From Desulfovibrio gilichinskyi (GTDB lineage: Bacteria > Desulfobacterota > Desulfovibrionia > Desulfovibrionales > Desulfovibrionaceae), in the NCBI RefSeq assembly GCF_900177375.1, contig NZ_FWZU01000005.1, forward strand, positions 248,001 through 312,000: DNA of 64,000 bases, in the 5' to 3' direction. The translations under genes and the position numbers were made by a program. The notes beneath the pieces are model-generated. The model was not told where the DNA came from. It searched no databases and was given only the letters and a program-made list of their open reading frames with translations. Below, piece by piece: positions 4,481-60,716 of the stretch (position 1 is the stretch's first letter; the number at the start of each line of letters is the position of its first letter).

Positions 4481-5239
4481 TTAAATGGCTGCGCTGATTT
4501 GTTTAGCAACGGTGGTGATCGTTTCAGACACCTGAGCGACCATTTTTGATGAAATACCTGCTTTAGCTCCTGAAAGGCTGACTGAAGCAACAACTTCTCC
4601 GTTTTGCGCAAAGATAGGAGCTGCAATACACATCAACCCTGCAACGTGTTCCTCATCGTCGATACTGAATCCACGCTTACGGATTGTTTCAAGTTCTTGC
4701 TGCAGTTCATCCACACTCGTAATACAGTTTGGTCCCCGCCGTTCAAGCGGCACCATCTGTTTGAGCAATCGTTCCCGTCTGGTTTCGGGCATGAAAGCAA
4801 GTAAACATTTGCCTACAGCTGTACAGTACATGGGGTTTTCTGCTCCGACTTCCGATTGCATAAAGATCGCATTTTTCCCCCGTATTTTTTCAATATAGAC
4901 CACCATACCGTTGCGTTCAACAGTCAGATGAACTGTTTCCGAAAACTCTTGAACAAGTTTTTCCAGAAATGGAGTGGCTCTACGGACCAGAATACTGTGT
5001 CTCCGCACTTGTCCACCGAGTCGAAGCAACTTGAGTCCTAGGGAATAGCGGGAGTCTCTGGGATTTTGTTCCAGATAGCCTTTTTGAGCCAAGGTACTGA
5101 TTAAGCTGAAAGCTGTACTTTTACTGAGATCAAGCAGGTTGGCGATTTCAGTTACGCTCAGTTCTTTGGTTGAGCTATTGTATAACTCCAATATGCTCAA
5201 CGCTCTAACTACTGATTGTATTTGTCTGCCTTCACCCAT
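4481..5239 (-). CDS. IclR-family regulator of the aldonate operon
   Basis: About 252 residues with the IclR layout: an N-terminal winged helix-turn-helix (LSVTEIANLLDLSKSTAFSL) and a C-terminal effector domain ending in the typical GEVVASVSLSGAKAGIS. IclR proteins bind small organic acids and usually repress or activate one catabolic operon. I chose the ATG at 5239 because AGGAG stands 8 bases upstream. An in-frame ATG at 5269 would put the first codons inside the operator dyad at 5252-5268 and has no ribosome binding site. The gene order regulator-permease-aldolase-dehydratase resembles the E. coli yjhIHGF locus, which also has an IclR-type regulator. The effector is probably a sugar acid or its keto-deoxy derivative. 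Confidence 0.88.
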   Translation of the reverse strand: MGEGRQIQSVVRALSILELYNSSTKELSVTEIANLLDLSKSTAFSLISTLAQKGYLEQNPRDSRYSLGLKLLRLGGQVRRHSILVRRATPFLEKLVQEFSETVHLTVERNGMVVYIEKIRGKNAIFMQSEVGAENPMYCTAVGKCLLAFMPETRRERLLKQMVPLERRGPNCITSVDELQQELETIRKRGFSIDDEEHVAGLMCIAAPIFAQNGEVVASVSLSGAKAGISSKMVAQVSETITTVAKQISAAI

Positions 5240-11139: not shown

Positions 11140-12327
11140 ATGAATTTTGAATTTCAGAATCCGACACGACTTATTTTTGGCGCAGGATCGCTTTCCAGAC
11201 TGGGCGAAGTTGTTAGTGAATATGGTCAAAAAGCATTGATAGTAACAGGCGGGGGCAGTATTAAACGCAGCGGTATTTTTGACCGCGCAGTTGTAAGTTT
11301 AAAGGGAGCAGGAATTCCCTTTGCACAGTGTGCAGGTGTAGAACCTAATCCTCGCATTTCTTCTGTTGTGCGCGGCGCAGAAACAGTTCGCACAGAGGGA
11401 TGTGACGTAATTATCGCTTTGGGCGGAGGCAGTACTATAGATGCCGCTAAGGTTATTGCCGCGGCTGTTTTTTATGACGGTGATCCGTGGGATATGATCC
11501 GCCACGGAGATGAAAAACTCTACGTCCCGCTTAAAGCCTTGCCGATAATAGCTGTCCCGACTTTAGCCGCGACAGGTTCGGAGGCGAACAGTACCGCAGT
11601 CATTTCCAATGAGGAAACTCTCATTAAATCTTCCATTTCAAATAACTGTCTCTATCCTCGTGTTGCTGTGGTCGATCCGGAGCTGACTGTCAGTGTCCCT
11701 AAGGATCAGACCGCTTATGGCGTATGTGATACCATCATTCATGTTACAGAGACTTATTTTAACGGGATAGGCGGTACGCCGATTCAGGATCGCTTTGCCG
11801 AGGGAGTGATACTCACCGCCATGGAATGGGGGCCGAAAGCTCTTGCTGACGGAACCGACATCGAAGCCAGAGCGCAAATTCAGTGGGCAGCTTTGGTCGC
11901 GCTTAACGGATGGCTACAGGTAGGAACCGACAGCAGCCGTCCGGTGCATAAGATCGAGCATACGCTGTCTGCTCATCATGACGTAACGCACGCGGCAGGT
12001 CTTTCGGCTGTTAATCAGTCATGGATGCGGTTTGCCGCTAAAACTCGTCCTGAAAGATTCGTGCAGTTTGCGCAGCGTATTTTCGGGCTGATTCCAAAAT
12101 CTCCAGACGATATGGATTGTGCAATGGAAGGTATTGACCGCTTCGAAGAATTTATGAAGTCTATCGGTTGCCCGACAAGCTTGTCTGAAATAGGCATCGG
12201 TGATGAACTGTTTTCCCGCTACGCCGATGATATTCTGTTTCTTGCCAAAGACAGGTATGGCAACCTTCCCGGACGGCCGACAATGAACAGAGATGATATC
12301 TTAGAGTTGTTGCGCGCGTCGCTTTAG
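11140..12327 (+). CDS. Iron-containing alcohol dehydrogenase, YqhD/BDH type (copy A)
   Basis: A 395-residue NAD(P)H-dependent group III alcohol dehydrogenase, full length. The cofactor loop GGGS is at 95-98. The metal ligands are Asp197 and His201 (YGVCDTIIHV), His270 and His284 (in HKIEHTLSAHHDVTH). The phrase IQDRFAEGVILTAMEWGPKAL is shared with E. coli YqhD, a broad aldehyde reductase, so I favour aldehyde detoxification or reduction. GGAGG stands 6 bases before the ATG. A near-identical paralogue lies 1.2 kb downstream, with an AraC-type regulator between them, as yqhC lies beside yqhD in E. coli. Confidence 0.92.
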   Translation: MNFEFQNPTRLIFGAGSLSRLGEVVSEYGQKALIVTGGGSIKRSGIFDRAVVSLKGAGIPFAQCAGVEPNPRISSVVRGAETVRTEGCDVIIALGGGSTIDAAKVIAAAVFYDGDPWDMIRHGDEKLYVPLKALPIIAVPTLAATGSEANSTAVISNEETLIKSSISNNCLYPRVAVVDPELTVSVPKDQTAYGVCDTIIHVTETYFNGIGGTPIQDRFAEGVILTAMEWGPKALADGTDIEARAQIQWAALVALNGWLQVGTDSSRPVHKIEHTLSAHHDVTHAAGLSAVNQSWMRFAAKTRPERFVQFAQRIFGLIPKSPDDMDCAMEGIDRFEEFMKSIGCPTSLSEIGIGDELFSRYADDILFLAKDRYGNLPGRPTMNRDDILELLRASL

Positions 12328-12384: not shown

Positions 12385-13305
12385 TTAAATCTCTTGCAGT
12401 CTCTTAATGTCTCTTAAAGGTGGCGCACCAAATTGCCGGCTGTATTCTCTGGTAAACTGGGAAGGGCTTTCGTAGCCGACCTGAAATGCTGCACTTGTTA
12501 CGTCCTGACGTTCCGTTAACATCAATCTTCTTGCTTCATGCAACCTTATCCACTTTTGAAACTGGAGTGGGCTCATTGCCGTTAGTGACCTGAAATGATG
12601 ATGAAATGTAGATGTGCTCATCCCTACACGCGCTGCAAGGTCATTAATCCTAAGCTGTTTTGTATAATTCTCTTTTAACCAGTCGATAGCTTGCGTGATT
12701 GCTTGGCTATGGCTGCCTGTCATGGCCAGTTGCTGCAGGCGTGGTCCTTGTTCACTAATAAGTAAACGATAAAGAATTTCACGCTGAATAAGCGGGGCGA
12801 TAACCGGAATATTTTCCGGCTCATCAAGTAAATCTAGCAATCTTTTAAATAAATTCAACAACGGGGCCGTGAGTTTGCCGACAGCTATTCCACGTTTTGA
12901 TTGCTTAGGGCAGGGGCTCTTAAAGTTGCTGTCCACCATGAGTTGCGCAATCTCTCTTAGATCAAGTTTCAGCACCAGCCCTAGGTATGGCTTTTGTTTA
13001 TCGGCTTCAATTACTTGAGCTAATATTGGCAGACCTACGGATGTAATAAGAAAGTGATTGGAGTCGTATACATATTCTTCATCACTTAGGAACACTCGCT
13101 TGGCTCCTTGGGCGACTAAGCAGATACTCGGATCATGCATGTAACTCGTCGGTTCTGAGAGTTTGTCATATTTGCGAAGCAGCAACCCGGGAATTTTTGT
13201 TGTCAGACGAAAATCGTTTTCGGTCCATCGGGCAATTTTATCTGCCAGAGCTTCACGTACTTCTCCTAAATCATCTGAGGGTGTAAATTGTGTATTGCTA
13301 TTCAT
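12385..13305 (-). CDS. AraC-family regulator (YqhC-like)
   Basis: A 306-residue regulator with an N-terminal AraC_N cupin-type domain (about 25-190, including DPSICLVAQGAKRVFL) and a C-terminal pair of helix-turn-helices (AITQAIDWLKENYTKQLRINDLA and PSQFTREYSRQFGAPPLRD). The architecture matches E. coli YqhC, which activates the aldehyde reductase gene yqhD in response to aldehydes. Its place between two YqhD-type genes supports the same role here, which is inference. It converges with copy A and is divergent from copy B, so the 13306-13491 gap probably carries both promoters. AGAGAATCAGA precedes the ATG. Confidence 0.9.
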   Translation of the reverse strand: MNSNTQFTPSDDLGEVREALADKIARWTENDFRLTTKIPGLLLRKYDKLSEPTSYMHDPSICLVAQGAKRVFLSDEEYVYDSNHFLITSVGLPILAQVIEADKQKPYLGLVLKLDLREIAQLMVDSNFKSPCPKQSKRGIAVGKLTAPLLNLFKRLLDLLDEPENIPVIAPLIQREILYRLLISEQGPRLQQLAMTGSHSQAITQAIDWLKENYTKQLRINDLAARVGMSTSTFHHHFRSLTAMSPLQFQKWIRLHEARRLMLTERQDVTSAAFQVGYESPSQFTREYSRQFGAPPLRDIKRLQEI

Positions 13306-13491: not shown

Positions 13492-14679
13492 ATGAATTTT
13501 GAATTTCATAACCCGACACGTTTAATTTTCGGCGCAGGATCACTCTCCAAACTTGGGGAAGTTGTAGCTGAACATGGCAAAAAAGCATTGATAGTTACCG
13601 GAGGAGGCAGCGTCAAGCGTAGTGGTACTTTCGACCGCGCAGTAGAGAGTCTGAAGGATGCGGGTGTTTTGTTTGCACAGTGTTCAGGCGTAGAGCCGAA
13701 TCCGAGAATTTCTACAGTGGTACGCGGCGCAAATATAGCTCGAGAGGAGGGATGTGATGTGATCGTAGCCTTGGGTGGCGGCAGCACTATGGACGCAGCT
13801 AAAGTTATGGCTGCGGCAGTCCTCTATGATGGCGATCCATGGAATATGATTCGTCACGGCCAGGACCAAGTATATACTCCGGCAAAAGCGTTACCTGTCA
13901 TCACTGTTCCTACTTTGGCGGCAACAGGTTCAGAGACAAATTGCGGCGCAGTTATCACTAATGAAGAAACTTCCGTGAAGTCTTTTGTAGCCGATAAGTG
14001 TTTCTATCCTCGTGTTGCGATTGTTGATCCGGAATTGACATTGAGCGTGCCGAAGAATCAGACCGCTTACGGAGTGTGTGATCTTATCACCCATGTTACC
14101 GAAACCTATTTTAACGGAATAGGCGGCACTCCGATTCAGGATCGTTTTGCTGAAGGAGTCATTTTAACCGCTATGGAGTGGGGACCTAAAGCAATTGCTG
14201 ATGGTAAGAATTTAGAAGCACGCACTCAAGTTCAATGGGCCGCACTGGTTGCACTCAATGGGTGGTTGCAGGTTGGAACGGATTATAGAATGCCTGTTCA
14301 TATGATTGAACATACTCTTTCTGCCCATCATGATGTGGCTCATGGAGCGGGTTTGTCGGCTATCAATCCATCATGGATGCGTTTTGCTGCTAAGTCTCGC
14401 CCGGAAAGATTTGTTCAGTTTGCTCAGCGGATTTTCGGGATTGTTCCTAAAGCACCTGATGATATGGATTGTGCAATGAAAGGAATCGATCGTTTCGAAG
14501 ACTTTTTGAGGTCTATAGATTGTCCGACAAGTTTATCTGAAATAGGCATCGGTGACGAACTGTTATCCCGCTATGCTGACGATACACTGTTGGTTGCTAA
14601 AGATGAAAATGGTAATCTTTCAGGACGTCCGGCAATGAATAGAGATGATATAATCGAGATGTTGCGGGCGGCGCTCTAA
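13492..14679 (+). CDS. Iron-containing alcohol dehydrogenase, YqhD/BDH type (copy B)
   Basis: The same length (395 residues) and layout as the copy at 11140, with the same GGGS loop and Asp/His ligands (YGVCDLITHV and HMIEHTLSAHHDVAH). By eye the proteins share well over three quarters of residues, while the DNA differs at many third positions, so the duplication is not recent. Differences fall near the active site (TDYRMPVHMIEH versus TDSSRPVHKIEH), which could change substrate range. AGGAGG is 6 bases before the ATG. Divergent from the AraC-type gene, it is the likely main target of that regulator. Confidence 0.92.
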   Translation: MNFEFHNPTRLIFGAGSLSKLGEVVAEHGKKALIVTGGGSVKRSGTFDRAVESLKDAGVLFAQCSGVEPNPRISTVVRGANIAREEGCDVIVALGGGSTMDAAKVMAAAVLYDGDPWNMIRHGQDQVYTPAKALPVITVPTLAATGSETNCGAVITNEETSVKSFVADKCFYPRVAIVDPELTLSVPKNQTAYGVCDLITHVTETYFNGIGGTPIQDRFAEGVILTAMEWGPKAIADGKNLEARTQVQWAALVALNGWLQVGTDYRMPVHMIEHTLSAHHDVAHGAGLSAINPSWMRFAAKSRPERFVQFAQRIFGIVPKAPDDMDCAMKGIDRFEDFLRSIDCPTSLSEIGIGDELLSRYADDTLLVAKDENGNLSGRPAMNRDDIIEMLRAAL

Positions 14680-50498: not shown

Positions 50499-51488
50499 AT
50501 GAATACATATATATTTATACCGCCGGTCAGAAAGCCTACCGGAGGTATCACCGTTTTTTGTCAGATAGCCTCTATCCTTGCGCGTCAGGGAAAGAATGTC
50601 CGCCTTGTTCTGCGTGAAGCAGGCAGCTGGATGCCCCCTTTACTTGAAGGAGATCCGAAGCCGATTTTGTGGGATGAGCTAAAGCTTTGTAAAGATGATC
50701 TATGGCTTGTGCCGGAAGGATGGGTAAACAGCCTTGCTCCCGGTCTTAATTCCGGCGCAAAGTGCGTTGTTTACTGTCAGAATTGGGCGTATCTTTTTTC
50801 TTCTTTGCCGGAAGGCGTTTCATGGCGGAATCTGCCTGTTTCATTCTTAGCTGTATCGCATCCTGTTGAATGGTTTATGCAGCAGACCCTTGGCACCATT
50901 TCGCCCATATTAAGGCCCGGTATAGATACAAATCTTTTCTATCCGCCTGAAAATATTGCTGATGGCCCGCTTAGAATTGCTTACATGCCGCGTAAAAACA
51001 AAGCATTAGTCAGTCAGATTAAATCTATTTTCGAAACCCGTAATCCAAACTGTGATGTGCGCTGGGTTGAAATTGCCAATATGGACGCACAGGGGGTGGC
51101 TGCTGCTTTAAGAACCAGCCATATTTTTCTGGTATCAGGATTCCCTGAAGGATGCCCGCTTCCGCCGCTTGAAGCTCTTGCATCCGGTTGTATACCCGTA
51201 GGTTTTTCCGGCTTCGGCGGGTGGGATTACATGCGCCAGCTTGATGGAGCTGTTTTTAAACCATGGTGGCCGCTGCGTGATGTTGAATGGTCCGGCAACG
51301 GATTCTGGTCGGCTGACGCGGATGTGCTTGATGCGGCGTTTAATCTTGAAAAGGCTCTTAATCTATGGCGCGAAGGCGGTGCTGCGCTTGACAGCGCACT
51401 GGCCTCAGGGCAACAAACCGTCCGTTCCTATACGCTGGAAATTCAGGCCGAAACAGTTCGCAAGATATGGGATAATTTTCAAAGTTAA
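50499..51488 (+). CDS. GT4-like glycosyltransferase
   Basis: A 329-residue GT-B-type transferase. It starts MNTYIFIPPVRKPTGGITVF, and the sugar-nucleotide-binding region is HIFLVSGFPEGCPLPPLEALASG, with the E-x7-E pattern. It heads a plus-strand group with TatD, WecG and, further on, a TPR-GT41 protein, so surface glycan or protein glycosylation is the likely context. AGGAAAAACT precedes the ATG. The stop is 10 bases before the tatD start. Confidence 0.82.
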   Translation: MNTYIFIPPVRKPTGGITVFCQIASILARQGKNVRLVLREAGSWMPPLLEGDPKPILWDELKLCKDDLWLVPEGWVNSLAPGLNSGAKCVVYCQNWAYLFSSLPEGVSWRNLPVSFLAVSHPVEWFMQQTLGTISPILRPGIDTNLFYPPENIADGPLRIAYMPRKNKALVSQIKSIFETRNPNCDVRWVEIANMDAQGVAAALRTSHIFLVSGFPEGCPLPPLEALASGCIPVGFSGFGGWDYMRQLDGAVFKPWWPLRDVEWSGNGFWSADADVLDAAFNLEKALNLWREGGAALDSALASGQQTVRSYTLEIQAETVRKIWDNFQS

Positions 51489-51498
51489 GATTAAAAAT

Positions 51499-52320
51499 AT
51501 GTCAAAAAAGAATAAAGTAAGATCATTGCCGCAGACTGTCGGCATAAATGTACCCGGCGTTGAAACTCATGCACACCTTGATATGGAAGATTTTAAAGAA
51601 GATCTGCCTGAAGTAATGGCAAGGGCTAAAGAATGCGGAATTGCGAAGATAGGTAATATTTTTCTAGGATCGCAGATATACGAAGCGAATCGCACTCTTT
51701 TTGATGCATATCCTGAAGTGTTTTTCCTGCTCGGAATTCATCCCAATGATGCAGATAAATATACCGATGCGGAGGGAGAAGCCATTCGCGCTGCATTCAA
51801 GTCGGACAGCCGTTTGAAAGCCGTCGGCGAAATCGGGCTGGATTTCTACTGGGACGATGTTTCCCCTGATGTTCAGGAAAAAGCTTTCCGCGCTCAGCTT
51901 GCACTTGCTGATGAACTTGATGTTCCCGTTGTGATCCACAGCCGTGATGCCCATGAAAAAACTTTGGAAGTTTTGGACGATTACGGTTGGTCCGGCAAAC
52001 CGCTGCTCTGGCACTGCTTCGGTTCTGATATTGCCACAGCGAAAAGGATTCTTGATAACGGCTGGTACATCTCCATCCCGGGGCCGATTACCTACAAGAA
52101 GAATGAAGAGGCGCAGGAAGCCGCAAAGTATATTCCGCTTGAGCGGATGGTTCTTGAAACAGATTGTCCTTACCTTTCTCCTGAACCGTGGCGCGGCAAG
52201 CGCAATGAACCAGCGTATGTGGTCTTCACTGCCGCAAAGGTAGCGGAGCTTAAAGGAATGGACGTAAATGAGCTTTGGGCTGCCTGTGCTAAGAATGCAT
52301 ATGATTTTTTCAGGCTGTAG
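51499..52320 (+). CDS. TatD-family metal-dependent hydrolase
   Basis: A 273-residue TIM-barrel hydrolase; the ATG at 51499 gives the standard TatD length. Metal ligands are visible in order: ETHAHLD (two His), VGEIGLDFYW (Glu), VVIHSRDA (His), LLWHCFGS (His) and VLETDCPYL (Asp). TatD proteins act as 3'-5' deoxyribonucleases in DNA quality control. Linkage with glycosyltransferases looks like operon sharing rather than pathway membership. Confidence 0.92.
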   Translation: MSKKNKVRSLPQTVGINVPGVETHAHLDMEDFKEDLPEVMARAKECGIAKIGNIFLGSQIYEANRTLFDAYPEVFFLLGIHPNDADKYTDAEGEAIRAAFKSDSRLKAVGEIGLDFYWDDVSPDVQEKAFRAQLALADELDVPVVIHSRDAHEKTLEVLDDYGWSGKPLLWHCFGSDIATAKRILDNGWYISIPGPITYKKNEEAQEAAKYIPLERMVLETDCPYLSPEPWRGKRNEPAYVVFTAAKVAELKGMDVNELWAACAKNAYDFFRL

Positions 52321-52341: not shown

Positions 52342-53115
52342 ATGATTGAAAGCGACAAAATTATACGGTTCATGGGGTTGCGCATGCACACATGGACTAT
52401 GAGCGAAACCGTGGATGAGATTTTCAGTCGGTTAAAGTACGGGCTGTTCACTCAGCATGTGGTGGTTAATGCGGCTAAGCTTATAAATATGGACCGGGAT
52501 AAATCGCTTCGTGAATCTGTTGAAGGTTCTGATATCATTAATATTGACGGCATGAGTATAGTCTGGGGGGCGCGCTTTTTAGGGCATGATGTAAAGGAGA
52601 GAGTCGCGGGCTTTGATCTGTTTTATGCACTTCTGGATCGTGCACGAGAAGAAGGTGAGCCTGTTTTTCTGCTGGGCGCTAAGCCGGAAGTTGTGGAAAA
52701 AGCGGCCGCAAATCTAAGAATAAAATATCCTGAGCTTAATATAGCAGGCTTTCACCACGGCTATTTTTGGGATGACGAAGAATCTGTTGTAAAAGAAATT
52801 GCCAAGTCCGGCGCAAAGTTGCTCTTTGTCGCCATTACCTCACCTAAAAAAGAAAATTTCATTCATCGCTGGCAGCAAGAGCTGGGCGTAAACTTCGTAA
52901 TGGGCGTTGGCGGAACATTCGATATTGCCGCCGGAATATCTAAGCGCGCACCTGAATTTATGCAAAAACACGGGCTGGAATGGTTTTATCGTTTGGTTCA
53001 GGAACCGCGCAGAATGTGGAAGCGGTATCTTGTTACTAATGCTTTGTTTGCTGTGAAATTGCTTAAGTTTAAGATTTTTGGGCGGTTTGCCAGCCGTGAT
53101 AAAGATATTTTTTAA
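52342..53115 (+). CDS. wecG: WecG/TagA/CpsF-family glycosyltransferase (GT26)
   Basis: A 257-residue enzyme. Typical text: VVNAAKLINMDRDKSLRE, then NIDGMSIVWGARFLG, then VFLLGAKPEVVEKAA, FIHRWQQELGVNFVMGVGGTFDIAAG and EWFYRLVQEPRRMWKRYL. Members add N-acetylmannosamine(uronate) or similar sugars to lipid-linked intermediates at the membrane. No Shine-Dalgarno is clear, and translation may be coupled to tatD. The last about 25 codons are repeated in degenerate form after the KAP gene, at 55116-55187. Confidence 0.9.
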   Translation: MIESDKIIRFMGLRMHTWTMSETVDEIFSRLKYGLFTQHVVVNAAKLINMDRDKSLRESVEGSDIINIDGMSIVWGARFLGHDVKERVAGFDLFYALLDRAREEGEPVFLLGAKPEVVEKAAANLRIKYPELNIAGFHHGYFWDDEESVVKEIAKSGAKLLFVAITSPKKENFIHRWQQELGVNFVMGVGGTFDIAAGISKRAPEFMQKHGLEWFYRLVQEPRRMWKRYLVTNALFAVKLLKFKIFGRFASRDKDIF

Positions 53116-53182
53116 GAAAATTGTAGAGTGGATTAAACAAATATTTACTTCTTCGTAGTCAGGCGAAGAAAGGATTCCTAAG

Positions 53183-55108
53183 ATGTTGAATCAGCATATT
53201 ACCGATTATCTTCAATACTACGTGGATTCTAAGAAGAACCCTGATCATGCGGTAATGCTTAATGGACCTTGGGGGTCTGGGAAAACTTGGTTTATTAAGG
53301 AATTTGTTAAGGATTTTACCCCCACATATCAAGAAGTAATGAAGTTTTTTCATGTAAGTTTATATGGGACAAAATCCATAGAAGATATTGACGGTGAACT
53401 TTTTCGGCAAGCACATCCATTTTTGTCTTCAAGGTCTATGATAATAGGCAAGGCCGTAGCAAAAGGGTTTATGAAAGGGTTTTTGAAAATAGATTTAGAC
53501 GGAGATGGAAAAGAAGATTTTAAGATTGAGCCAAATGATTTAAAGGGGGCTGTTACAGCTGATGATTTAGAAGAAATCAAGCCTGTTCTTATCTTTGATG
53601 ATTTGGAACGATGTCCAATCGATATTATAGAGTTGCTGGGTTACATTAACCATTTTGTTGAAATACAGGGATATAAGGTTATCATCTTAGCGCATGAAGA
53701 TGCTTTAAAAAAGAGATGGGAGAAAGCTAAAGATGGTAAAACATCTCATCGCTACGAAGAGATTAAAGAAAAGTTAGTAGGTAAAACGTTTACAGTTGAA
53801 CCTAATGTTAGTGCCGCGATTAGTTCATTTGTTGATGATATTGAGCATGAGAAAAGCAAAGTCATATGCAAAAAGAATATTGAAGCTATCGAAATAATTT
53901 TTAATGAGTCTACATATAATAATTTGCGGCATATAAAGCGAGGGATTTGGGACTACTCTCTATTTGTGAATACTATTTCTGACAACGCTACAATTATGGC
54001 TAATGATGATTTTCTTAGTGATATGCTTAATTTGTTTTTGATTTATACGATTGAAGCTCGGAAGGGAATTATGAAAACAATGCATGATATAACAAATCCT
54101 TTAATACAGGTGATGATGGAAAAATATCGAGATGAAAAACCTTCAGAAGTCAGTACCGCTTTAAAAAAATATTCAATTGTTAATGCTGAAAATGCTCTTA
54201 TTCGTTCTGAGATATGGGATTTTCTTCTTTTTTCAAAGAATGCAGTGTCTATATCTACGGTTGAAGAATCAATTTTAAGTACTTTTTATTTTTATAATGA
54301 GTCAACACCTGCATGGAAAAGATTATGGAGATATTACGATCTTGAAGATTCAGAATTTAGGGAACTTAAAAAAATAGTAGAAATTCAATTTAGTGAGTGT
54401 GATTTTGAATGCCCTCAAATACTTCTCCATGTTTTTGGCATTTTTTTACAATTGAATAAGGAAAATCTTATAAAATTAGATAAGCAAGAACTGGTTTCAC
54501 GAGCAAATATGAATGTTGATATATTATTACAAAGAGGACTTTTATATACCAAAGACGTCTTAAGTAACGAGTACCTTGCCTTTAAACTTGATCGAGGATG
54601 GGATGGGCTCGGATATCATTGCGTTGAAAGTGAATTATTTATAAATGTGTGGAATTATATTAAAGCACAACTTTTAGTTGGCAAGCAATCTTTTTTAGAG
54701 GAAAAGTCTAAATATTTGTCGGTATTAATGGCTAAAGATCCAAATGCCTTTTTACAGTTAATTGTCCATACAAATTATGGAGAGAATCATTTTTTTGATA
54801 AACCTGTTCTACAGTATATTTGCCCGGTAGAGTTTGCTAGATGTTTTGCTAATTTAAGTAATGCAGGCAAAATGAGCATTCATAGCGCGATTTCTTTACG
54901 GTATGAAGCTTTTCGGGTTGATGCTCTTGTCGAAGAAGCAGAATGGCTTGAAAATGTACGCAGAGAAATAGAAAAAGAATCAATAAAATATCAAAATGAA
55001 GTGAGTTCAATTCATTTCGCCACCATGAATAATTATATTGATAACTCACTAAGAGATTTAAAAGAAGCAAAAGAAAAAGCCGCTTCATTAACCACCCCTC
55101 ATACATAA
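53183..55108 (+). CDS. KAP-family P-loop NTPase
   Basis: A 641-residue protein with an N-terminal KAP-type NTPase domain. Walker A is GPWGSGKTW (about 28-36) and Walker B is PVLIFDDLERCPID (about 133-146), followed by VIILAHEDALKKRW as in STAND-like KAP proteins. No membrane segments are obvious in the P-loop domain, unlike classic KAP proteins. The large C-terminal part (about 260-641) is helical with no named domain and ends in a charged coiled-coil-like tail. KAP proteins are common in phage defence islands, but a role here is inference. Base composition is much more AT-rich than the neighbours. AAGGA precedes the ATG. Confidence 0.8.
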   Translation: MLNQHITDYLQYYVDSKKNPDHAVMLNGPWGSGKTWFIKEFVKDFTPTYQEVMKFFHVSLYGTKSIEDIDGELFRQAHPFLSSRSMIIGKAVAKGFMKGFLKIDLDGDGKEDFKIEPNDLKGAVTADDLEEIKPVLIFDDLERCPIDIIELLGYINHFVEIQGYKVIILAHEDALKKRWEKAKDGKTSHRYEEIKEKLVGKTFTVEPNVSAAISSFVDDIEHEKSKVICKKNIEAIEIIFNESTYNNLRHIKRGIWDYSLFVNTISDNATIMANDDFLSDMLNLFLIYTIEARKGIMKTMHDITNPLIQVMMEKYRDEKPSEVSTALKKYSIVNAENALIRSEIWDFLLFSKNAVSISTVEESILSTFYFYNESTPAWKRLWRYYDLEDSEFRELKKIVEIQFSECDFECPQILLHVFGIFLQLNKENLIKLDKQELVSRANMNVDILLQRGLLYTKDVLSNEYLAFKLDRGWDGLGYHCVESELFINVWNYIKAQLLVGKQSFLEEKSKYLSVLMAKDPNAFLQLIVHTNYGENHFFDKPVLQYICPVEFARCFANLSNAGKMSIHSAISLRYEAFRVDALVEEAEWLENVRREIEKESIKYQNEVSSIHFATMNNYIDNSLRDLKEAKEKAASLTTPHT

Positions 55109-55115
55109 ATCAAAA

Positions 55116-55187
55116 AATCGGAAACGGTACCTAATCAGGAAAATTTTGTTTGCTGTGAAATTGAATAAGTGTAAATTATTCTGGTAA
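55116..55187 (+). pseudogene. Degenerate copy of the wecG 3' end
   Basis: Read in frame, the sequence encodes NRKRYLIRKILFAVKL, then NKCKLFW and a TAA stop. The intact wecG has MWKRYLVTNALFAVKL followed by LKFKIFG at 53020-53082. The 19 bases at 55145-55163 are identical to 53043-53061. The two copies bracket the KAP gene. Confidence 0.8.
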
Positions 55188-55191
55188 AAAA

Positions 55192-55626
55192 ATGTCTAAA
55201 ATAATTAGAGAATCCATTGCAGCAGATTATCCTCTTCTTAGTGAAATCTGGCTCCGTGCTTCCATAAAGGCCCATTCTTTTGTTCCAGATGAATTTTGGG
55301 AAAGTAAGGTAGATATTATGCGTGATGAATATCTGCCAGCATCTGAAACTTGGGTTATTGAAAACGGTTGTAGCTTGGCCGGATTCTTTTGTCTTGTGGA
55401 TGATGTGCTTGCAGCTATCTTTATTGCTCCGGAATGGCAGAAGAATGGTTTTGGTTCTCGGTTAATGGAGAAAGCAAAGAAGCTGCGTACACGGTTGGAA
55501 TTATCCGTTTATACTGCTAACTCCAGTGCAATTGATTTTTATAAATTTCACGGTTTTAATATTGTTGATAAGCGGCAGGACGTGCATACTTCATGTTCTG
55601 AGTTTGTTATGGAGTGGAAAGGTTAA
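55192..55626 (+). CDS. GNAT-family N-acetyltransferase
   Basis: A 144-residue acetyltransferase with IREAT/IRESIAADYP-type start, acetyl-CoA motif AIFIAPEWQKNGFGSRLMEK and the C-terminal SAIDFYKFHGFNIV. It resembles E. coli YiaC/YjaB-type enzymes; the substrate is unknown. Its start lies 5 bases after the stop of the wecG relic, and no strong Shine-Dalgarno is visible. Confidence 0.87.
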   Translation: MSKIIRESIAADYPLLSEIWLRASIKAHSFVPDEFWESKVDIMRDEYLPASETWVIENGCSLAGFFCLVDDVLAAIFIAPEWQKNGFGSRLMEKAKKLRTRLELSVYTANSSAIDFYKFHGFNIVDKRQDVHTSCSEFVMEWKG

Positions 55627-55667: not shown

Positions 55668-58070
55668 GTGAATCCAGATGAAAACGGACAATTATGTGAT
55701 GAACTGAAGCTTATTTCAGACCGTGCTTACTCGCTTTTTTCTGCGGGGCAGGTAGAACCTGCACAGGCTCTTTGGTCCCGTGTTGTAAAGCTTGATCCTG
55801 ATCACGCTGTTGCTCTTTTCATGCTCGGTCTATGCGCTCAGAAGCGTGGTGATCACACTGCTGCTGTTGATTTTCTTACACGCGCTTCCATCCTCATTCC
55901 TAATGAAGCTGATATTCTTAATTCCCTTGGTGTTTCTCTAAAAAATCTAGGCCGTCCGGCAGAGGCTTTTATTGTTTTTGAGCGGGCTTTGGCTTTGCAG
56001 CCGGATGACGGTTTTGCTGCATTTAATGCTGGCACGGTCCTGATGGCTCTTGGCCGTCTGGATGAAGCCGCGCGATATTTTAAAATTTCCGCTCAAACTG
56101 CGGAGCTTCACGCTGACGCACTGGAAGCTTTGATTCAAGTCTTATGCAAGCTTGATAAGGACAATGAAGCCTTGCCTGTCTGTGAGAATCTTATTGTTGC
56201 GGACCCTCGAAATCCGGCCGGACATTTCTGGCTTTGTGATATTCTGGCCCGTTTGAACAAGCCGGAGCAGGCTCTTCCTCATTCTCGGTGTGCGGTGGAC
56301 CTTGCTCCTGATAATCCTGTGTATCTGTCTCAACTTGGCGATATTCTGCATAAGCTTGGTCGAAATGATGATGCTGTTTTGCGTTACCGTGACTCCTTGG
56401 AACATGATCCTGTTGATGTCAGTACTCGTAATAATCTTGGTGCGGCTTTAAAAACACTTGGTAAGTACGGGCTGGCGGAAGAAGAGTTTAAGCGTTGCCT
56501 TGAAATTGATCCGAATCATCTCTCCGCTCTGGTTAATCTAGGTGTTTCAGCTAAGGAATCAGGGGATGCCGCTAAGGCTTCAGGGTATTTTGAACGGGCT
56601 GTCTCCATTGCCCCTGCTGATCTGGATCTTAAACTTTATCTGTGTATGAGTCGCATCCCTTTTTATTATGACAGTGATGAAAAAATAACCCTTTGCCGCG
56701 AAAAGTATGAGCATGATTTGAATGATCTTTACAGCGCAGTTGCCAACGCTGAGATAAACGGTGATAAAAAATCTCTGGCAAAGCTTGCTGACGCAGTGGG
56801 AAAGCTTCAGCCTTATTATCTGCCGTATCAGGGGCAGTGTGACCGTAAGCTTATGAAAACTTACGGCTTTGTAATTTCCAAAGCTGTGAATGTAAGTTTT
56901 TCAGAAACAGTCACGAAGGGGCAAAGTTCATTCCCCGTCATACCAATGGTCCCCAAAGAAGGGGAGCGCATACGGGTAGGTATTGTCTCGGGACATTTTC
57001 GCAATCATTCTGTTTGGAAGATGCCTGTTAAGGGGTGGGTGTCCGGCCTTGATCGTAAACGATTTGAAGTCATCGGCTACAGCACTTCTCAGTTGGTTGA
57101 TAGTGAAACAGATGTTGCGCGGCAGACTTTTGATAGTTTCAGAGATAATCTGAAAACGGTTACGGCTCTGGCTGAGTCCGTGGGCGGTGATGCTCCGCAT
57201 GTCTTGATTTACCCGGAACTTGGAATGGACCCGCTTTGCGCTAAGTCGGCTTGTTTACGGTTGGCTCCGGTTCAATGCGTGTCTTGGGGGCATCCTGAAA
57301 CCAGCGGCCTGGAAAGCATAGACTACTTTCTCTCCAGTGATTTGATGGAACCTGTAGATGGTCAGGAACATTACAGTGAACAGTTAGTCCGGCTGCCGGG
57401 GCTGGGTATCGATTATATTTATTCTTTGCCTGATCCAAGCGGAGATAGTCGGGCTGATTTCGGCCTTGCTAAAACAGATGTTGTTTATCTGTGTTTGCAG
57501 ACACTTTATAAGTATTTGCCGCAGCAGGACAAAGTTTTTGCCGAGATAGCGAAGCGTGTTCCTGATTCACGCTTTGTATTTATTGAAAACAGCGGAGCGA
57601 GTCATCTTAACCGTCGTTTTCGTACCCGTCTTGAAAAGGTTTTCAGCGGGGCAGGTTTGAACCAACATGAACGGCTGGTCTTTTTGCCCTCGCTGCCGGG
57701 TGATCGCTTTCAGGCATTGATAGGTTTGGGTGATGTCTTTTTAGATTCTTTCGGCTGGTCCGGCTGTAATTCAAGTCTTGAGGCCATGTCTAAAAATGTT
57801 GCACCAGTGACATTTCCCGGCATGCTCATGCGGGGCAGGCATACGGCGGCGTTTCTTAAGCGCATGGATCTTGGCGAGCTGATAGCTTCTTCTGTCGAAG
57901 ATTATGTCGAGAAAGCCGTTCTCCTTGGACTTGATCCGGATTATCGCCGCAAAATGGCAAACCTTATTCGTGAACGCATCAATCTCTGCTATGACGGCAG
58001 TGACGCAGTGAAAGGCTTAGAGAGTTTCCTTGAGGAAGCCGTTCGCCTGCTGCCTAAGATCGATTCTTAA
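55668..58070 (+). CDS. TPR protein with SPINDLY/O-GlcNAc-transferase-like (GT41) domain
   Basis: An 800-residue protein starting at GTG with GAGGAATT upstream. Residues about 1-330 are tetratricopeptide repeats (e.g. AVALFMLGLCAQKRGDHTAA, AAFNAGTVLMALGRLDEAA, STRNNLGAALKTLGKYGLAE). Residues about 425-800 are a GT41-like domain: VGIVSGHFRNHSVWKM, APVQCVSWGHPETSGLESID, SEQLVRLPGLG and RLVFLPSLPGDRFQALIGLGDVFLDSFGWSG. Such proteins glycosylate other proteins or surface structures such as flagellin, but the target is unknown. It is the end of the plus-strand glycosylation group and converges on the cobalamin gene. Confidence 0.88.
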   Translation: MNPDENGQLCDELKLISDRAYSLFSAGQVEPAQALWSRVVKLDPDHAVALFMLGLCAQKRGDHTAAVDFLTRASILIPNEADILNSLGVSLKNLGRPAEAFIVFERALALQPDDGFAAFNAGTVLMALGRLDEAARYFKISAQTAELHADALEALIQVLCKLDKDNEALPVCENLIVADPRNPAGHFWLCDILARLNKPEQALPHSRCAVDLAPDNPVYLSQLGDILHKLGRNDDAVLRYRDSLEHDPVDVSTRNNLGAALKTLGKYGLAEEEFKRCLEIDPNHLSALVNLGVSAKESGDAAKASGYFERAVSIAPADLDLKLYLCMSRIPFYYDSDEKITLCREKYEHDLNDLYSAVANAEINGDKKSLAKLADAVGKLQPYYLPYQGQCDRKLMKTYGFVISKAVNVSFSETVTKGQSSFPVIPMVPKEGERIRVGIVSGHFRNHSVWKMPVKGWVSGLDRKRFEVIGYSTSQLVDSETDVARQTFDSFRDNLKTVTALAESVGGDAPHVLIYPELGMDPLCAKSACLRLAPVQCVSWGHPETSGLESIDYFLSSDLMEPVDGQEHYSEQLVRLPGLGIDYIYSLPDPSGDSRADFGLAKTDVVYLCLQTLYKYLPQQDKVFAEIAKRVPDSRFVFIENSGASHLNRRFRTRLEKVFSGAGLNQHERLVFLPSLPGDRFQALIGLGDVFLDSFGWSGCNSSLEAMSKNVAPVTFPGMLMRGRHTAAFLKRMDLGELIASSVEDYVEKAVLLGLDPDYRRKMANLIRERINLCYDGSDAVKGLESFLEEAVRLLPKIDS

Positions 58071-58073
58071 TTT

Positions 58074-60716
58074 CTACATCCCGAGTGCATTATAAACCGC
58101 CTGCATATCGACATTCTCCCGCACGACTTTTGCGAGCCTGTCCAGCGCGTCTTCCATTCCGAAGGTGGTCTGGATAGTTTCAAGCTTGGGCAGACCTTTT
58201 TTCTCGCGCAGGGAATCAATAAACCAGCGTCTGAACTCGTCGGCATCGAAAATGCCATGCATGTAGGTCCCCCAGATCATGCCGGATTTAATTCCGAATC
58301 CTAGAACCTTAGCGATAGGAACCGATCCGGTCAGCCCTTTGGGAACGATCATGGCGCGTACTGTCGGCAACAGCGGTTCTGTTTTTCCGTGATGGATTTC
58401 ATAACCGCTGACATCCATTTTGCTTAACCCGTGGGTTCCGTTGATACGGGTCAGAGTTTTTTCCTGTCCCAGAGTTGTCTGGAGCGGGAGCAAACCTAAT
58501 CCGTCTGCGGTCAATACTTCAGATTCTATTTCATCCGGGTCGCTGATGTATTGGCCAAGCATTTGAAGTCCGCCGCATATGCCTATTATTTCGGATTTTT
58601 CTTTAAGGTTTAAAATTGCCTGTGCAAGTCCGCTTTCTTTGATATGTGCAAGGTCCGAAAGGGTGCTTTTGCTGCCGGGAATAATGATGGCGTCAGGGGT
58701 TCCCATATCATCGGGATTGTCTACAATTCGTAAGTTTACATCAGGCTCACCTTTCAGCGCATCAAGGTCCGTGAAATTTGAAATGCGCGGCAGGTCGATG
58801 CAGACTATATCCACATAGTCGCGGTGTTTGCCACGGCTGCCGGACTTGCCGATGTCCTGTTTAAATGAAACTGAATCTTCATCCGGTAAACCTAGGTTTT
58901 CTATGTGCGGAATTACTCCTAGAACTGGTTTTCCGGTGCGATCAAGCGTGAAATTAAGTGCGGGGGTAAGCAGTGATGCATCCCCTCTGAATTTATTAAG
59001 CAGAAATCCGCAGACCATTTTGCGCTCATGCGCATCGATTAAGTCCATGGTTCCGGAAAGTGCTGCAAACACTCCTCCGCGATCGATATCACCAGTGATA
59101 ATAACTTTCGCTTCGGCATATTCAGCCATTGCCATATTAACTATGTCGTGCTGTTTTAGATTAATTTCCGCAGGGCTTCCGGCTCCTTCAATCACCATGA
59201 TGTCGCGGTCAACACTTAAGGAATCGTAAGCATTTTTAACAGCTTCAAACGCTGTGGGCTTATATTTTACGTAGTCCAGAACTTTCATGTTTCCGACAGG
59301 TTTGCCCATGATGATTATCTGCGAGCCCGTGTTGCTGTTCGGTTTAAGCAGAACCGGATTCATGCGGACATCAGGAGCCTGTTTACATGCCGCGGCCTGA
59401 GTAACCTGCGCCCGTCCCATTTCCAGACCTGCGTCAGTGACAAAGGAATTGAGTGACATGTTCTGCGCTTTAAACGGAGCGACTTTGTATCCGTCCTGTA
59501 GAAAGATTCTGCAAAACGCAGCCGCAAGAATGGATTTACCAGCATTGGAACAGGTTCCCTGAATCATGAGTGCCGGAGTTTTCTTCGCCTTTGTAGCGAC
59601 GACTTCCATGCCGGTAAAGGAGCGCAAGCCGTCGATAAGTTTATTGTTCTCCTTCGCTGTCCTCACCGCTATGCGGAAATATGTGGAGTCCAGGCCGTCG
59701 AAGTTGTCGCATTGGCGCACGGCAATGTTATTTTTTATCAGGTGTTCAATGAGCCCTGTTGCATCCATGCCGACTCGTTGAACCTGACAGAGCATAAAAT
59801 TTGCTTGTGCAGGAAAAGTCCTTATGCCCGGTATTTTGGCGATTCCTTGAACTAATTCTTCACGCAGACGGGTGGTGGTTTCAATGGTCCGGCGCGCGTA
59901 ATCTTCATCTTTTATGCAGCGCAGTCCCACTTTCTGGGCGAGCAGGTTTACGGACCAGCAAGGCAGGATGTTTTTAAGTGCCATAATGATATCCGGCGAA
60001 GCAAATGCGAGGCCGAGGCGCAGGCCCGGTATGGCGTAAAATTTGGTCAGTGATAGAATCGTAATGACGTTGGGAGGACGTTTGCCGGTAAGCCTTTCGA
60101 TATTAGGGATGAAGTCCGCAAAGGATTCATCAACAATAAAACGTGAATCAGGATGGGTGCGTGCAATTTTTTTTAGTTCTTCCGGGTCAAATGCTGTGCC
60201 CGTGGGATTATTAGGCTGAGCCAGAAATACCAATGCAGGTGAAGTTGATAGGAAAGATGAAAGTTTATCGAAATCAGGCGCAAATCCTTTTTGCGGATCT
60301 AAAGGAATCTGTTCGGTTTTAAGACCTGCGATTAAACATGAACGCTCATAATCCACATAACAGGGAACCGGTATCACTGCACGTTTGAATCCGCCAAGGC
60401 GGGTAATCGCGCTGATAAGTTCGGAGGCTCCGTTTCCTGCAATACATTCTGTCGGCCATACGGAATATTTCTGACAGGCGGCAAGAGTCAGTTCCGAGCT
60501 CTCAGGGTCAGGGTATTTGTCAACTTCATTAAGTGCGTTAACGACGACCTGTTGCAACCATGGCGGAGGTCCGAGGGGATTGATATTTGCGGAAAAATCA
60601 AGAAGTTCGGACGAAGAACATCCTGCCCGTTCAGCAAGTTTTTTAATGTTGCCGCCATGAGCGTATTTCTTTTCTTGTTCTGCCATATTAGTGATATTAT
60701 CCTGTGAGTCCTGCAT
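58074..60716 (-). CDS. Fused CobD (threonine-phosphate decarboxylase) - CbiP/CobQ (cobyric acid synthase)
   Basis: An 880-residue two-enzyme fusion. Residues 1-370 are a PLP-dependent CobD/CobC-type enzyme: NPLGPP, AQPNNPTGTAF, and the Schiff-base Lys225 in LSLTKFYAIPGLRLG. It would make (R)-1-aminopropan-2-ol phosphate. Residues about 380-880 are adenosylcobyric acid synthase: IQGTCSNAGKS (ATP site), FKAQNMSLNSFVT, the glutaminase nucleophile in IIGICGGLQMLG and the His in YEIHHGKTEP. Both act in the late steps of cobalamin synthesis, so fusing them is plausible. The protein feeds the cofactor needed by NrdJ. GGAGGGAG precedes the ATG. Confidence 0.93.
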   Translation of the reverse strand: MQDSQDNITNMAEQEKKYAHGGNIKKLAERAGCSSSELLDFSANINPLGPPPWLQQVVVNALNEVDKYPDPESSELTLAACQKYSVWPTECIAGNGASELISAITRLGGFKRAVIPVPCYVDYERSCLIAGLKTEQIPLDPQKGFAPDFDKLSSFLSTSPALVFLAQPNNPTGTAFDPEELKKIARTHPDSRFIVDESFADFIPNIERLTGKRPPNVITILSLTKFYAIPGLRLGLAFASPDIIMALKNILPCWSVNLLAQKVGLRCIKDEDYARRTIETTTRLREELVQGIAKIPGIRTFPAQANFMLCQVQRVGMDATGLIEHLIKNNIAVRQCDNFDGLDSTYFRIAVRTAKENNKLIDGLRSFTGMEVVATKAKKTPALMIQGTCSNAGKSILAAAFCRIFLQDGYKVAPFKAQNMSLNSFVTDAGLEMGRAQVTQAAACKQAPDVRMNPVLLKPNSNTGSQIIIMGKPVGNMKVLDYVKYKPTAFEAVKNAYDSLSVDRDIMVIEGAGSPAEINLKQHDIVNMAMAEYAEAKVIITGDIDRGGVFAALSGTMDLIDAHERKMVCGFLLNKFRGDASLLTPALNFTLDRTGKPVLGVIPHIENLGLPDEDSVSFKQDIGKSGSRGKHRDYVDIVCIDLPRISNFTDLDALKGEPDVNLRIVDNPDDMGTPDAIIIPGSKSTLSDLAHIKESGLAQAILNLKEKSEIIGICGGLQMLGQYISDPDEIESEVLTADGLGLLPLQTTLGQEKTLTRINGTHGLSKMDVSGYEIHHGKTEPLLPTVRAMIVPKGLTGSVPIAKVLGFGIKSGMIWGTYMHGIFDADEFRRWFIDSLREKKGLPKLETIQTTFGMEDALDRLAKVVRENVDMQAVYNALGM

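Follow-up and report, generated by a model that had tools for sequence, protein, structure and literature searches.

In the 64,000-nucleotide stretch of the Desulfovibrio gilichinskyi genome analyzed here (contig NZ_FWZU01000005.1; the whole stretch is called the window), a gene for a KAP-type P-loop NTPase lies downstream of the glycosyltransferase gene wecG, and on its far side the DNA carries a second copy of the end of wecG. We consider it fairly probable that this 2.1-kb segment is a single-gene insert that entered at the 3' end of wecG, with a duplicated gene end of about 55-65 bp. The segment and its two ends comprise the following features:

52342..53115, plus strand: wecG/tagA-type glycosyltransferase gene (open frame; Pfam Glyco_tran_WecG 4.8e-65)
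53018..53082, plus strand: UP, the upstream copy of the wecG 3' end (exact core 53043-53061)
53150..53169, plus strand: leader of the KAP gene with a short hairpin, TCTTCG...CGAAGA, also present before the KAP gene of a related genome, G006
53183..55108, plus strand: the inserted gene, encoding a 641-residue KAP P-loop NTPase assigned to PADLOC PDC-S49 (open frame; Pfam KAP_NTPase 6.4e-23)
55120..55184, plus strand: DN, the downstream, worn copy of the wecG 3' end (exact core 55145-55163), which runs into the native junction with the gene for a GNAT acetyltransferase

Positions 53018-53072 and 55120-55174 align without gaps over 55 nt at 76% identity, 2,102 bp apart, and local alignment of UP and DN gives 47 identities in 61 positions (77%) with a score of 30 that none of 1000 shuffles reached (best shuffle, 14). 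Both copies contain an identical 19-mer at the positions that a preliminary description of this DNA had given, and in the 3.96-Mb source genome (G000 in our set) this core, with up to two mismatches allowed, occurs only at these two sites. A DNA profile of the wecG 3' ends of eight other species matched DN at 55120-55184 (E 4.8e-4; about 160 kb scanned), and the same profile matched the scar of wecG in a related genome, G009 (E 6.9e-9). Read by eye, the frame from position 55116 encodes NRKRYLIRKILFAVKLNKCKLFW followed by a stop, the same peptide that had earlier been set in parallel with the wecG C terminus. The preliminary description had also suggested, as one option, that the insertion restores wecG. 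The gene is not exactly restored: the wecG frame of the source genome has a 10-residue C-terminal extension (53083-53112) relative to the end found in six of eight relatives, the remaining two running one and two residues beyond the common end.

The KAP-free arrangement is seen in relatives. Our comparison covered 17 genomes of the genus including the source genome, with slot genes located by tblastn in 16 loci and the window and with open reading frame lists for 10 of the 17. In G014 wecG and the GNAT gene are directly adjacent, and the same junction survives as the scar in G009. Because the DNA following DN matches this type of wecG-GNAT junction, DN can be taken for the native end of wecG, with KAP as an insert placed before it. 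The alignments are thus best read as an insertion at the wecG 3' end, the place proposed in the preliminary description, with DN forming the native wecG-GNAT junction. Relatives do not generally keep the KAP gene here, as 15 of the 17 genomes are without it at this site.

A second locus in the genus has the same organization. The KAP protein of G016 is 39% identical to that of the window, and its gene is bracketed by direct repeats of 69 bp that differ by 2 mismatches and lie 2,043 bp apart. The repeated stretch begins directly after the stop codon of lepB and includes the lepB terminator. The order of lepB, terminator and next gene is found in single copy in G008, G004 and G003 (in G003 with extra bases before the terminator). 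There is no recombinase in either insert. Judged from these alignments, G016 appears to be an independent case of repeat-bracketed insertion. Across 315 kb (28 stretches, 26 from the genus and two from G025, which belongs to another genus), only the window KAP, the G016 KAP and a tandem dehydrogenase pair had direct repeats as strong as these at a spacing of 1.5-3 kb, the two KAP loci having been chosen for holding KAP.

The inserted gene has a GC content of 33%, compared with 43% for the window, in line with the earlier characterization of the segment as AT-rich. Its leader hairpin folds no better than shuffles (z -1.0). The KAP domain (PF07693) scores 81.9 bits against a curated cut-off of 20; the P-loop and DD-E-R motifs are present, with W30, G31, G33 and K34 and D139, D140, E142 and R143 invariant across 53 sequences. 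PDC-S49 and mad8 were the only PADLOC profiles to match at E 0.1 or better, and the PDC-S49 match is full-length (residues 3-631 on profile positions 6-621 of 624, E 4.7e-168), as it is in G006, G016, G134, G143 and the E. coli homologues. In the AlphaFold2 model (mean pLDDT 87) a P-loop domain is followed by a C-terminal part made up of helices alone. A PDB sequence search returned no match; Foldseek gave ORC subunits (E 6.5e-5) and RdrA of the RADAR defense system (E 1.9e-4) as the best matches and nothing at E 0.001 among viral predicted structures. Because the query TM-score was below 0.3 for both ORC and RdrA, the modeled likeness would be only that of a shared ATPase fold (distant AAA+). 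Open reading frames of at least 80 aa between the repeats are limited to KAP on the plus strand and one of 85 aa on the minus strand inside KAP, which was not searched. The earlier remark that no integrase is present holds for the six genes scanned with Pfam (GT4, TatD, wecG, KAP, GNAT and TPR).

A link between KAP proteins and defense had been raised before, and it is strengthened, as a candidate function, by the PDC-S49 match and by the position of the E. coli homologues. PDC genes are phage defense candidates, according to the portion of PMC11514479 consulted; a full-text literature search found no paper naming PDC-S49. Homologues occur in 45 of 5,426 E. coli genomes, and in all 10 of the 45 that were inspected the gene lies one to three genes from the portal gene of a P2-like prophage. 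On its other side is a DinI-like gene (9 of 10) or, on the endonuclease side, an IS3 copy (1 of 10), and its companions vary (RES, ParA with SIR2, DprA, HNH or hypothetical proteins). We therefore take KAP to be a candidate anti-phage gene, with defense as its presumed role.

In the scenario that we favor, a PDC-S49-family KAP NTPase gene would have inserted into the genome at the wecG 3' end, leaving the duplicated wecG end on its far side, so that wecG stayed readable. In favor of such insertion at gene ends, other family members in the same bacterial family (G143, G345 and G134) have the KAP 3' end facing the 3' end of a tRNA gene, in G134 about 290 bp away. Since the insert is without a recombinase, the duplication step would have been supplied in trans, either by a site-specific recombinase or through single-crossover recombination of a circle carrying the gene end. 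The protein may act as an NTPase through its N-terminal P-loop domain (about residues 1-260), and the all-helical C-terminal part could sense infection and drive an abortive response; that is, KAP would sense phage and stop growth.

Several points weigh against this scenario. We know of no phage test of the window KAP protein, and no circular or excised form of the KAP insert was seen. Flanking repeats with a score of at least 16 were found at 3 of 122 family loci and at 9 of 1539 random placements; the 122 are the 83 of 90 and 39 of 41 loci for which both 500-bp flanks were scored, and they include a few broken frames with misplaced ends, at least two places counted twice (G143 = L146; G134 = L136) and several near-identical prophage copies. 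DN also appears more worn than would be expected of a recent simple duplication, because UP is closer to the G009 scar (57/65, 88%) than to DN (77%); the alignment of DN with the scar has 54 identities in 73 positions. The wear, by eye greater to the left of the core than to the right, would fit either an older event or an incoming gene end that was already diverged. Finally, a weak wecG-end-like remnant after the KAP gene of G006 may indicate an older insertion that was later lost in G005 and G009.

Because G006 has this remnant and shares the leader and N terminus (about 88% identical at the DNA level), one old insertion with losses is a serious rival. The insertion would have been common to G000, G005, G006 and G009 and passed down vertically, with losses in G005 and G009, and KAP would not be mobile now, the repeat being an old scar. 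The G006 gene lies in the same slot, and the divergence between UP and DN suits an old event. The remnant was equaled by 2 to 7 of 1000 shuffles in alignment, but the wecG-end profile gave it an E value of 48, which is not significant. Furthermore, the KAP proteins of G000 and G006 are 56-58% identical while their neighbors are 77-92% identical, and the G009 scar, which is joined directly to GNAT, is closer to UP than to DN. We regard an old insertion as possible but doubtful. We think it unlikely that the segment is instead the remnant of a larger integrase-borne island, in which KAP would have been cargo between attL and attR (with the 19-mer as core) and the integrase and the rest would have been deleted. 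An exact 19-bp core within a diverged repeat is att-like, and the E. coli homologues are carried in prophages. Homologues are also found beside tRNA genes; G143 has a second copy of the tRNA-Leu terminator (50 bp, 84%) 4.6 kb from the first, and some relatives have repeated tRNA 3' ends at those sites, often about 10 kb or more apart. However, the two independent inserts are of near-equal, minimal size and hold just KAP and short leaders, and one would not expect two separate decays to halt at a common end point. Nor is there an integrase gene inside the window insert, and none was noticed beside the G143 or G345 KAP among open reading frames read by eye.

The preliminary description offered one further option, that a tandem copy of wecG had been replaced by KAP; such a copy would have stood before GNAT, with only its last 65 bp or so left. 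DN does retain an open frame of 23 codons in which, by eye, 13 of 23 residues are as in wecG. This option is nevertheless highly improbable: homology ends about 65 bp from the gene end, only one wecG is present at the junctions with GNAT (in G014 and, reduced to a scar, in G009), and the duplication in G016 is of a terminator, not a gene.

The age of the repeat was also approached through flanking genes. Identity at 4-fold sites between G000 and G009 is 63-77% in four neighboring genes and 91% in GNAT, the latter suggesting recent exchange or unusual constraint. The idea that DN, being worn, must predate the split of G000 and G009 was dropped because identity in the four genes is itself so low. 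The window and G006 KAP proteins (the latter at L089 4644-6497, minus strand) differ unevenly, with 95% identity at the N terminus and as little as 25% at alignment columns of about 80-140, where the window KAP is closer to that of G016 than to that of G006.

Elsewhere, KAP genes of this type (E 1e-30 or better) were found in nine genomes in an order-wide search of 348; in G025 the contig ends truncate the gene. G143, G134 and G345 had no close flanking repeat in the scoring, and the ten relatives' stretches compared contained no clean empty site for the KAP loci at tRNA-Leu and tRNA-Asp, the sequence after these tRNAs varying by species. In G095 (L312, minus strand, 1383-1494 and 12420-12531) the tRNA-Leu 3' end with its terminator occurs twice, about 11 kb apart, resembling stacked integrated elements. 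The three loci at or above the repeat score of 16 were the window, G016 and L158 of Wenyingzhuangia, and at 3 of 122 flanking duplication was rejected as a family-wide feature of KAP. At L158 (915-9160) the KAP gene belongs to an array of repeats (7-8 copies of 124-224 nt, at intervals of 0.7-2.1 kb), probably a gene-cassette array with a mechanism different from that at the window, where only two repeat copies are present and not an integron cassette array. A close-relative scan of genome contigs with the single KAP protein found nothing; the alignment-based scan gave the best 80 of 312 loci. A donor search with the left end of the insert gave short matches only, the best of 26 bp in G013 (E 6e-4), with the G006 KAP leader at E 2e-3.

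Among the immediate neighbors (120-900 aa) of 74 homologues, 135 proteins in all, there were four TniQ, three integrase and two type I restriction-modification matches, counted among the 25 best-represented families of 164 (Pfam) and 271 (PADLOC) and without a control set. In three Acinetobacter species (L153, L161 and L169) KAP seems to be followed by one and the same gene, arranged 3' end to 3' end; methionyl-tRNA synthetase matched 3 of the 135 proteins, and these are assigned to the three loci by gene length. A 3,443-bp 'circular plasmid' record that holds only KAP (L108) was considered as a circular form and rejected. It is probably an assembly fragment, because its sequence recurs identically inside longer records and the 13 kb around it showed no exact repeat of at least 14 bases. 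Another record, L107 (NZ_CP141089.1), is a 4.9-Mb E. coli chromosome listed as a plasmid in PLSDB.

The insert lies within a slot whose content varies across the genus and whose other members in the window are as follows:

51448..52320, plus strand: TatD-family DNase gene, the constant left anchor of the slot (Pfam TatD_DNase 8.4e-76; in 17 of 17 genus genomes)
55192..55626, plus strand: GNAT acetyltransferase gene, the right neighbor of wecG in the KAP-free order (open frame; Pfam GNAT match)
55668..58070, plus strand: gene for a TPR protein with a Glyco_transf_41 (GT41) match, a variable slot gene (in 3 of 17 genus genomes)
58074..60716, minus strand: right anchor, from its sequence presumably a CobQ-like cobalamin-synthesis fusion gene (right anchor in 10 of 17 genomes counting G000)

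KAP is present in the slot of two of the 17 genomes, G000 and G006, and wecG of this kind in nine. The order after TatD is wecG-KAP-GNAT-TPR in G000, KAP-TPR in G006 (with TatD directly before KAP) and wecG scar-GNAT-TPR in G009. wecG is the sole slot gene in G007, G013, G012, G015, G003 and G010, with an apparent GNAT start in G012, and in G002 it follows a lipase-like and a weakly deacetylase-like gene. GNAT is found in the slots of G016, G008 and G011 and as a fragment in that of G004; G001 has neither wecG nor GNAT, and in G005 the slot is shorter than 30 bp and holds no gene. The scar in G009 (L087, about 4900-4985) reflects loss of wecG by an internal deletion, which seems to run between short AAGCG repeats and fused the first bases of the gene to its last 60 or so, beside GNAT. 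PADLOC scanning of the window wecG, GNAT and TPR genes and the two additional G002 genes gave only weak generic TPR/PrimPol matches. No other defense cargo was found at the same site across the 17 genomes, with one copy of each slot gene scanned, nor did the relatives compared show other cargo between this pair of repeats. The TatD-CobQ interval is a variable slot rather than a demonstrated defense slot. The earlier notion of an exchangeable defense slot is therefore only partly right: the slot is variable, but the genes it holds besides KAP do not look like defense genes.

Elsewhere in the window, the tandem pair recovered by the repeat scan consists of two genes of 395 aa each (11140-12327 and 13492-14679), which we take to be alcohol-dehydrogenase-like and which in part form a direct repeat of 77% over 300 nt; a gene for an AraC-like regulator lies between them on the opposite strand.

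The window gene can be set beside several known systems. In P2-like prophages the interval between the replication endonuclease and portal genes is a defense hotspot (parts of PMC9519451; the hotspot is also treated in PMC9122126, likewise consulted in part), and the inspected E. coli homologues sit in it or next to it; the window KAP, however, is chromosomal, beside wecG, with no phage gene among its six Pfam-scanned neighbors. It resembles PDC-S49 in being a single gene with a full-length profile match, although PDC-S49 is itself only a predicted family. Tmn, as described in part of PMC11846954, is a KAP-family NTPase that acts against phage and has two unusual transmembrane domains. These described domains would set Tmn apart, and the window KAP fits another profile family best. 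The qatABCD system contains the TatD-like protein QatD. The window likewise has a TatD-type gene near a P-loop NTPase gene, and its TatD matches the PADLOC QatD profile (E 5.8e-19). It differs in that TatD occurs in all 17 genus genomes, 15 of them without KAP, and no Qat profile, that of the QatA-type ATPase included, matched KAP at E 0.1. The window TatD is probably an ordinary housekeeping TatD. Integrative elements that target tRNA genes also duplicate a gene 3' end at the far end of the insert, but the window insert has no integrase and is a single gene in 2.1 kb.

A more far-reaching proposal, to which we give little weight, would make each PDC-S49 KAP gene of this group a self-contained mobile unit of one gene. 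Such a unit would insert at gene 3' ends or terminators and duplicate 55-70 bp of the target, through an activity supplied in trans or through the NTPase itself. If this were true, lone defense genes would move without any recognized mobile element. The finding bears on how such genes travel when no such element is visible: two occurrences of a unit of almost constant size, at unrelated gene ends and each with a duplication of 55-69 bp, offer concrete sites at which to look for excision, circles and empty sites.

The pattern that the segment most resembles is insertion with long target duplication, with a lone KAP NTPase as new cargo. This mode of insertion is known for restriction-modification genes, for example in Helicobacter pylori, and is attributed to Nobusato et al. 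2000 in the portions consulted of PMC1643837 and PMC3031569; PMC4978471 likewise concerns a restriction-modification system. As described there, a gene unit lies between long direct repeats of its target, which is single-copy in a related genome. Long direct repeats of the target lie at both ends of our inserts as well (55 nt at 76% in the window; 69 nt with 2 mismatches in G016), and relatives have the target in single copy without the insert (G014 and G009 for wecG-GNAT; G008, G004 and G003 for lepB-terminator). The window insert holds the KAP gene only and no restriction-modification cargo, and in both cases a lone KAP NTPase sits at a gene 3' end or terminator with a duplication of 55-69 bp. 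Because its cargo is not a restriction-modification unit, we count the window segment as a variant of the long-target-duplication pattern, one that would carry the pattern over from restriction-modification genes to another kind of candidate defense gene.

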